Source of the DNA: Longimicrobiales bacterium
Lineage (GTDB): Bacteria; Gemmatimonadota; Gemmatimonadetes; Longimicrobiales; RSA9
Length of the DNA stretch: 57,326 bases
Assembly (NCBI GenBank): GCA_035461765.1
Contig: DATHUY010000038.1
Span: 1 to 57,326, forward strand
Direction of reading: 5' to 3'
The stretch's first letter is position 1, and each line of letters begins with the position of its first letter. The notes below the pieces were generated by a model. The model saw nothing but the letters and a program-made list of their open reading frames with translations, was not told where the DNA came from and did no database searches. Below, one piece after another: positions 30,439-31,866 of the stretch. Position numbers and translations under genes: made by a program.

Positions 30439-31320
30439 GTGACGGAGCGGGCGCTGGACGTCTCGCGCAAGGCCGCGGGCGTCCTCGAGGAACGCGGCTT
30501 CGAACAGGCGCGGCTCGAGTCCGAGCTGCTGCTGGCGGGCATTCTGGGACTGAAACGGCTCGACCTGTATCTTCAGCATGATCGCCCGCTGACGGAGAAC
30601 GAGCTGGAGCAGTACCGCAGCGCGGTCCGCCGCCGGCTCAGGCGCGAGCCCGTGCAGTACATCCTGGGCACGGCCGCCTTCCGCGGCCTGGACCTCCAGG
30701 TAGATGCGCGCGTGCTGATCCCGCGGCCGGAGACCGAAGTGCTCGCGGGCGCGGTGCTGGACTGGTCGAGAAGGCAGGGGCGGTGGGGCGGCGTTCTCGA
30801 CATCGGTACGGGATCGGGCGCCATCGCGCTCAGCCTGGTCACAGAGGGTGAGTACGAGCGGGTGGTAGCGAGCGACGTCTCAGTGGACGCGCTCGACGTG
30901 GCGCGGCTGAATGCGGCCCGACTCGGCGTGGCCGATCGGATCGAGTTCCGCGAGGGATCGCTGTTCGACGTGGTCGGTGAGGGCGAGCGCTATGACGTCA
31001 TCGTGTCGAATCCGCCGTATGTGGCGGAGTCGGACCGGGGCGGTCTCGCAGCCGAGGTCGTGACGCATGAGCCGGGAACTGCGTTGTTCGCCGGCGCCGA
31101 CGGTCTGGCCGTGATCGGCGGGCTCATCGCGGGCGCGGCGGACCGGCTTCGCCCGGGTGGACTGCTGGCCCTCGAGATGGGGGCGATGCAGGGGCCGGCC
31201 GTCCTGGATCTGCTTGCGAAATCGGGCAGGTACGTCGATTCGCGGGTGGAGCGCGACCTCGCCGGGCGCGACCGGATCGCGCTGGCGCAGACAGTCGGAC
31301 GCGGAACCCACTCTGCATAA
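30439..31320 (+). CDS. prmC: Release factor glutamine methyltransferase
   Basis: Methylates the glutamine of the GGQ motif in RF1/RF2. The 293-aa protein has an N-terminal helical domain, the RREPVQYILG and FRGLDL motifs, the SAM-binding DIGTGSGAIALSL (about residues 115-127) and the catalytic SNPPYV. GTG 30439 is chosen: the frame opens earlier inside prfA, but homology begins here, 7 nt after the prfA stop. The last eight codons and the stop lie inside the left arm of a long inverted repeat. Confidence 0.94.
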   Translation: MTERALDVSRKAAGVLEERGFEQARLESELLLAGILGLKRLDLYLQHDRPLTENELEQYRSAVRRRLRREPVQYILGTAAFRGLDLQVDARVLIPRPETEVLAGAVLDWSRRQGRWGGVLDIGTGSGAIALSLVTEGEYERVVASDVSVDALDVARLNAARLGVADRIEFREGSLFDVVGEGERYDVIVSNPPYVAESDRGGLAAEVVTHEPGTALFAGADGLAVIGGLIAGAADRLRPGGLLALEMGAMQGPAVLDLLAKSGRYVDSRVERDLAGRDRIALAQTVGRGTHSA

Positions 31321-31426
31321 CGGCTCAAAGGCACATGGCCGTGTCGCCGGTACCGCGGGCCGGAAGATCTGTATGCGCCACTGCCATGATGGGCTGAGCC
31401 GGTATGCAGAGTGGGTTCCGCGTCCG
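31296..31426. repeat. 131-nt near-palindrome overlapping the prmC 3' end
   Basis: The left arm 31296-31327 and right arm 31395-31426 are 32-nt inverted copies with one mismatch. Inside, 31334-31343 and 31379-31388 also pair (9 of 10), after a symmetric 6-nt internal loop; the central loop is about 35 nt. The left arm includes the last codons and stop of prmC, so the right arm is an inverted copy of coding sequence. In RNA it would make a very stable hairpin. No transposase gene or target-site duplication is visible. Confidence 0.85.
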
Positions 31427-31483
31427 GTGGCGCCGGTGGCGACGCCGGCGTAATAATTGGTGACTCTACCGGCGTGCGCCGGT
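31425..31483. repeat. Short GC-rich repeats before the YlbF-family gene
   Basis: CGGTGGCG is repeated in tandem (31425-31432 and 31434-31441), followed by the palindrome CGCCGGCG (31443-31450) and a hairpin ACCGGCG (31468-31474) pairing with 31477-31483. With the neighbouring long inverted repeat this makes the whole prmC-ylbF gap strongly structured. Confidence 0.5.
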
Positions 31484-31503
31484 TCATGCGGCATGGAGGA
31501 GTA

Positions 31504-31866
31504 ATGACGGACGGAATGAAGGAACGCGCCCAGGAGCTGGGGCGCCTGCTCGGTCAGAGCGACGAGTACAAGGCGCTCGGGCGCGCGCGGCAGCGACTCA
31601 CGGATGACCAGGACGCCGTAGGGGCGATGACGCGGCTCGACAAGCTGGAGCGGGAGATTTCCACCGCGCTCCACAGCGGCCAGGAGCCGGAGGAGAGCGC
31701 GAAACAGGAGTACGAGACCGTATTCGGCACGCTGCAGTCGTCGACTTCCTATCAGGGGCTGGTGGCCGCGCAGTCGAATTTTGACAAGCTGCTGCAGCGG
31801 GTGAACGAGGAGATCTCGCGCGGTATGGAGATGGGCGCGCAGTCACGCATTATCCTGCCGTCCTGA
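31504..31866 (+). CDS. YlbF/YmcA-family protein
   Basis: A 120-aa all-helical protein resembling the YlbF family (Com_YlbF, formerly DUF964). In Bacillus, YlbF, YmcA and YaaT form a complex that steers RNase Y. Visible: ELGRLLGQSDEYKALGRARQRL near the N-terminus and YQGLVAAQSNFDKLLQRVNEEI near the C-terminus. ATG 31504 is chosen for its strong GGAGG site 5 nt upstream; the frame extends to 31411 inside the repeat. Role in this organism unknown. Confidence 0.75.
   Translation: MTDGMKERAQELGRLLGQSDEYKALGRARQRLTDDQDAVGAMTRLDKLEREISTALHSGQEPEESAKQEYETVFGTLQSSTSYQGLVAAQSNFDKLLQRVNEEISRGMEMGAQSRIILPS

Follow-up and report, generated by a model that had tools for sequence, protein, structure and literature searches.

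A probable REPIN with a CGGAC tag forms the end of prmC in a Longimicrobiales bacterium

What is the long palindrome in which the prmC gene of this Longimicrobiales bacterium ends, and how did it come to be there? The window, which is the whole stretch of 57,326 nt analysed (contig DATHUY010000038.1), carries prmC at 30439–31320 on the plus strand and, downstream on the same strand, a YlbF-family gene at 31505–31866. The palindrome occupies 31296–31426 and so includes the last codons of prmC and none of ylbF. Its outermost 32 nt (31296–31327 and 31395–31426) are inverted arms with a single mismatch (A/C at arm position 25), and in a repeat search the pairing stretched to 52 nt with 83% complementarity, leaving 27 nt in between. 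The minimum free energy of the segment as RNA is −86.2 kcal/mol, and the z-score of −9.7 against dinucleotide shuffles excludes chance; the palindrome reported in the initial annotation is therefore real. The same annotation took the whole segment for an inverted duplication, and this is correct for two units of 52 nt and incorrect for the central 27 nt, which are neither duplicated nor conserved elsewhere.

The arms recur throughout the genome. A query of 161 nt gave 79 BLAST matches at ~40 places in the same assembly (4.68 Mb in 171 contigs; this assembly and that of the sister species, G001, are both fragmented), and the 22-nt core CCGGACGCGGAACCCRYTCTGCA occurs 103 times at up to three mismatches, compared with 0 for the reversed control. 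With up to four mismatches we counted 107 cores of this unit, termed REP1, in the loci retrieved, which took in all but a few of the matching places. Ninety-six of the 107 lie in head-to-head (+/−) pairs, about 11 have no close partner, and 48 of the 49 neighbouring pairs less than 500 nt apart are oriented head-to-head. The total is ~48 elements, and their outer lengths fall into two classes, 130–131 nt (26 elements) and 185–187 nt (15 elements), with a few at 122–198 nt. The elements of the sister species have similar length classes. No plasmid or phage copies of the element were found. In both species inverted REP1 units enclose a gene whose translation, on visual inspection, looks DUF503-like (YlxP; L044:1492–1967 and L103:1070–1546; 476/477 nt).

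Read inward from either end, the REP1 unit consists of CGGAC, then GCGG[A/C]ACCC[R][Y]TCTGCA, GGC at positions 27–29, CAT at 39–41, G at 48 and CC at ~50–52. The conserved unit spans ~52 nt, and the sequence past position 52 is unconserved: the median pairwise identity of the interiors is 0.556 in the short class (0.556 when shuffled) and 0.602 in the long class (0.585 when shuffled). The two arms of one element agree better with each other than do arms from different elements (none of 20000 permutations matched the observed agreement, whether in the short, the long or the G001 set), with two-sided changes at unit positions 10, 15 and 23–25. Within the unit, GCGGAACCCRTTCTGC could fold into a hairpin of six pairs that has a CCCR loop and one G.T mismatch; this single-unit hairpin is weak, at ~−2 kcal/mol (DNA parameters), and the variant in the window reaches −0.4. 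The position-by-position conservation across 26 short and 15 long elements places the left unit of the element at prmC, a member of the 131-nt class, at 31296–31347 (plus strand), where the CGGAC tag is followed by the hairpin-forming GCGGAACCCACTCTGC and by the conserved GGC (unit positions 27–29), CAT (39–41) and G..CC (48–52). The right unit, also of 52 nt, is inverted at 31375–31426 (minus strand), and the strandless 27-nt spacer at 31348–31374 is held in length and unconserved in sequence among the copies. Adjoining the left end is CAGT (31292–31295, plus strand), which matches the flank consensus C-M-G-Y of this genome; adjoining the right end is GTGG (31427–31430, minus strand), which reads CCAC outward-in and has C at position −1, like 39 of 96 ends.

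The element supplies prmC with seven complete codons and the stop (GGA CGC GGA ACC CAC TCT GCA TAA, 31297–31320, the stop being 31318–31320), so that the protein ends in GRGTHSA*. The initial annotation had counted eight codons and the stop within the arm; the stop and seven codons do lie there, and the eighth from the end (GTC, Val) straddles the element border at 31296. It had also read the right arm as an inverted copy of prmC coding sequence, and the relation is rather the reverse, the tail of prmC being element sequence. In the sister species, which belongs to the same genus, prmC ends in ...LAETQSS* and continues to ylbF without the element, with CAGT at the place matching the CAGT immediately left of the element here. 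The two genes are also adjacent in most relatives with no element in between. Of the origins the annotation had offered, the one borne out is a small non-autonomous element from which prmC took its C-terminus; the recurrence of the arms (79 matches, ~100 cores) and the empty site with its different tail support it. In other relatives prmC ends 2–29 residues beyond the conserved core. Because the tail past the conserved DLAGRDR region varies in all relatives, the element should leave the function of PrmC intact. The finding on the window itself is modest: the tail of prmC is mobile-element sequence and looks harmless. An identical element-encoded GRGTHSA* ending is found on at least one other upstream reading frame (L024:1533, contig C116).

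Two Y1_Tnp genes were found in the genome, both on contig C107. One, RAYT1 (C107:99580–100527, 316 aa), is a single-copy Y1/HUH gene between inverted REP1 units in which the 52-nt pattern is complete, with CAT (AAT in the 3′ unit) and G.CC. It matches the NCBIfam REP-associated tyrosine transposase with E 5e-18 and 65 bits, under the curated cut-off of 80. Its best PDB match by sequence is 4er8, a complex of E. coli TnpA-REP with a REP hairpin (E 3e-5), and its AlphaFold model (mean pLDDT 86.8) has the same structure as its top Foldseek match (E 2e-7), followed by the ISDra2 and IS608 transposases. The HUH motif (H58, H60) and the catalytic Tyr117 (YVHLNP) are conserved, and residues 269–311 are modelled with high pLDDT as three helices that match HTH_23/HTH_28 weakly, below the Pfam cut-offs. 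At residue 57 (L035) the protein has T before HUH (THIH), compared with the usual N in the G001 ortholog and the paralogs (NHIH/NHLH). The second gene, RAYT2 (C107:1806–2738), is 49% identical to RAYT1, has YVHLNA at the Y motif and is bordered by a different inverted unit, CCGGACCTGGCTTCACTTTA. This unit, REP2, has 30 matches in the genome, mostly as dimers of ~136–187 nt, of which there are at least 14 (loci L080–L094 and L043). REP1 and REP2 have in common the CGGAC tag and the inner CATG...TG.CC pattern. Since RAYT2 is bordered by its own family and RAYT1 by REP1, the genome holds two enzyme/repeat pairs. The elements are packed more densely than elsewhere on contig C56 (46.7 kb), where a stretch of ~24 kb carries five of the 131-nt class and one REP2 dimer.

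A comparison of 61 genomes of the order located REP1 DNA only in this genome and the sister species, and close RAYT homologs in the same two alone; one further weak match, in G051, has E 1.8e-4 and an internal stop. A scan of genome contigs with four RAYTs returned only the sister genome (Gemmatimonadetes MAG SH-MAG3) and one distant Poribacteria match. The neighbours of both genes, named from their translations, are syntenic between the two species (aldehyde dehydrogenase/lepB for RAYT1; rplI/rsfS for RAYT2), and RAYT1 is flanked by REPs in both. Such shared neighbourhoods would be anticipated for a RAYT that has been domesticated and is passed on vertically. In the phylum Gemmatimonadota, 26 of 395 genomes have a more distant RAYT match (E ≤ 0.001, some of them weak), and several of these other RAYTs lie between inverted repeats of the GGGGTCAGAG type, which is the classic motif of TIRtrons. 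Of six genomes searched in genus g63, four (G305, G351, G361 and G374) have 54–80 matches each to the motifs GGGGTCAGAGTC, which are border repeats of other Gemmatimonadota RAYTs, often as close inverted pairs.

Most of what is known about REPINs derives from systems of the gamma-proteobacteria, where the tag is GTAG and the RAYTs are short. Taking together the dispersed family, its inverted pairs, the REP1 units flanking RAYT1, the co-occurrence of RAYT and REP and the second pair of RAYT2 with REP2, we conclude that 31296–31426 is very probably a REPIN, with REP1 as the probable cognate substrate family of RAYT1, which by analogy would also have dispersed it. The repeated unit is an inverted, head-to-head pair of REPs with preferred fixed spacings, an unconserved spacer and hairpin-forming ends, and a cognate single-copy RAYT lies between copies of REP1. 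The REPINs of Pseudomonas fluorescens SBW25 resemble these elements in their head-to-head pairs, preferred spacings and conserved ends, in a poorly conserved spacer of kept length, in paired arm changes and in a cognate RAYT between repeats; there too, spacer length and hairpin capacity rather than sequence appear important (Bertels and Rainey 2011, PMC3116915). They differ in that the tag of REP1 is CGGAC and not GTAG, RAYT1 has a C-terminal HTH domain, the unit (52 nt) and the elements (131/186 nt) are longer, and there are ~48 dimers and not hundreds. E. coli TnpA-REP with its REP/BIME sequences (PDB 4er8; PMC8266576) shares the HUH/Y1 core, being the best sequence and fold match, as well as an imperfect hairpin behind a short tag and intergenic copies; it differs by its GTAG tag, the lack of an HTH tail, cleavage at CT and BIMEs that are often tandem arrays. 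At the foot of the hairpin, REP1 and REP2 carry the tag CGGAC and not GTAG or a variant of it; GTAG marks the best-known REP superfamily, and REP-like families without it have been described (PMC6006769). The opposite strand of the unit contains CGTCCG, and yet we do not equate REP1 with the CGTC superfamily because those REPs lack a transposase and have a CCA-like tail and stems of 8–9 bp, which mostly begin with AT pairs (PMC3733652).

The type of transposase complicates this assignment. RAYT1 has the HUH and Y--NP core, the Y[IV]HLNP motif and the HTH_23/HTH_28-like C-terminus of TnpA-Y1 subclass 2.1 (Quentin et al. 2018, PMC6006769). This subclass is probably the same group as the TIRYTs described by Di Nocera et al. 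(2013, PMC3733652), and on the motifs just listed RAYT1 and RAYT2 would be classed as subclass 2.1/TIRYT-like. A survey found no REP-like sequences with subclass 2.1 (PMC6006769), and this, together with the non-GTAG tag, the weak hairpin of a single unit, the ~11 unpaired REPs and the fragmentation of both assemblies, counts against the REPIN reading. TIRtrons resemble the present system in their long Y1 protein, in a gene lying between inverted repeats and in moderately abundant genomic copies, some of them dimers. It is possible, if somewhat doubtful, that the element is a dimer of the TIRs of a TIRtron, an internal-deletion derivative of the RAYT1 element and not a REPIN proper: RAYT1 comes close to the TIRYTs by its HTH-tailed protein type and by the GGGGTCAGAG-type TIRs found with other Gemmatimonadota RAYTs, and TIR families with dimers are on record (PMC3733652). 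Against it, GGGGWSAS, which borders several other Gemmatimonadota RAYTs, is absent from REP1 and REP2, the REP1 core can form a REP-like imperfect hairpin behind its tag, and nearly all copies are head-to-head pairs of fixed length with co-varying arms, which fit REPINs closely. An ordinary DDE-type insertion sequence could likewise leave a short, non-coding and dispersed MITE with long terminal inverted repeats, here of 52 bp. We consider this highly improbable, as no target-site duplication is visible in the element flanks and the only transposase gene found between two REP1 units is the Y1/HUH gene RAYT1, single-copy and at the same locus in the sister species. As for an origin at prmC itself, a local duplication of prmC sequence is rejected by the genome-wide family, which equally refutes the fresh quasi-palindrome made by template switching that the annotation had put forward. 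The near-perfect inverted arms would suit template switching, and palindrome correction could account for part of the arm matching within elements; the same 22–52 nt at ~48 sites with equal ends and lengths, and a sister-species prmC free of the sequence, leave it next to no probability.

A role in RNA was also considered, in which the element would function chiefly as a hairpin closing the prmC mRNA, where it would terminate transcription, protect against 3′ exonucleases or offer RNase III a cutting site ahead of ylbF. REPs elsewhere act in mRNA. The fold is very stable (z −9.7), the interiors of the family are modestly folded (mean z about −0.5 to −1.3), and many elements, above all those in convergent gaps, have a stop codon no more than ~10 nt away, distances of 0–11 nt being frequent in convergent and tandem contexts. 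By a home-made codon score, which may err on single distances, 25 of the 48 elements are between tandem genes, 13 between convergent and 8 between divergent genes, with 2 at contig or locus edges. The eight divergent cases speak against an RNA device, and the bias towards the 3′ gene end in tandem gaps (nearer in 16 of 23, Wilcoxon p 0.06) is only suggestive. No U-tract terminator (a GC-rich hairpin with a T-run) was found in 31000–31800, and no Rfam family exceeded its threshold, the only hit being P27 at 18.2 bits (gathering score 50), outside the palindrome. Arm co-variation is equally expected under recognition of single-stranded DNA, and an RNA device leaves the flanking of RAYT1 and the co-occurrence unexplained. 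We therefore regard it as unlikely, and the dedicated, YlbF-tied device of the initial annotation finds no support in elements spread over ~48 unrelated gene pairs.

On the REPIN reading, the two head-to-head REP1 units can pair into a single long hairpin, whether as single-stranded DNA or as RNA. By analogy with the E. coli and Pseudomonas RAYT/REP systems, RAYT1 would use the CGGAC tag and the hairpin to bind the unit in its folded, single-stranded state and would nick beside it by means of Tyr117, in the manner of TnpA-REP in vitro (PMC8266576); it would then disperse copies into intergenic DNA exposed as a single strand. One such copy would have inserted at the 3′ end of prmC, directly after CAGT, where its codons and stop replaced the native stop.

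The bases that abut the elements differ between the two species. In this genome CGGAC is preceded by T or C (Y) at 90 of 96 ends, and there is also an excess of C at −4 and of G at −2; in the sister species (L096–L112) it is preceded by G at 32 of 32 ends. Five element loci of the sister species have coding flanks in common with element loci here, and their ends obey each species' own rule. At four of the five the spacers have no recognisable identity between the species, and three of these four have similar lengths (189/187, 187/190 and 186/186 nt). These four may be old common insertions with rewritten ends or independent insertions into the same gaps. The fifth locus is the DUF503-like gene between REP1 units (477/476 nt). 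For TnpA-REP in vitro, the four nucleotides on the 5′ side of the hairpin have been proposed to guide the choice of cleavage site, a GTAC variant of this guide having directed cleavage at GT or GA (PMC8266576). The ...AC before the hairpin of REP1 and the GT or GC before the tag in this genome would fit such a guide; AG or GG before an identical CGGAC in the sister species is unexplained by the simple model. It is conceivable, though we think it rather unlikely, that the HTH-tailed RAYTs maintain the REPIN populations and set their ends, Y|CGGAC having been rewritten to G|CGGAC genome-wide alongside the divergence of RAYT1. If so, the rewriting would proceed by replacement in place or by repeated re-insertion into the same gaps, with spacer length kept and sequence lost.

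REPINs are a kind already known; new here are those of the Gemmatimonadota that have CGGAC as their tag and HTH-tailed RAYTs. The unusual features are a tag that is neither GTAG nor CGTC, the C-terminal helix-turn-helix of the RAYTs and the switch of abutting bases between sister species. Two cognate RAYT/REPIN pairs in one genome offer a natural comparison of RAYT recognition, with two enzymes and two substrates under one tag, and the species-specific switch of the abutting bases makes the guide-sequence model of cleavage-site choice testable.
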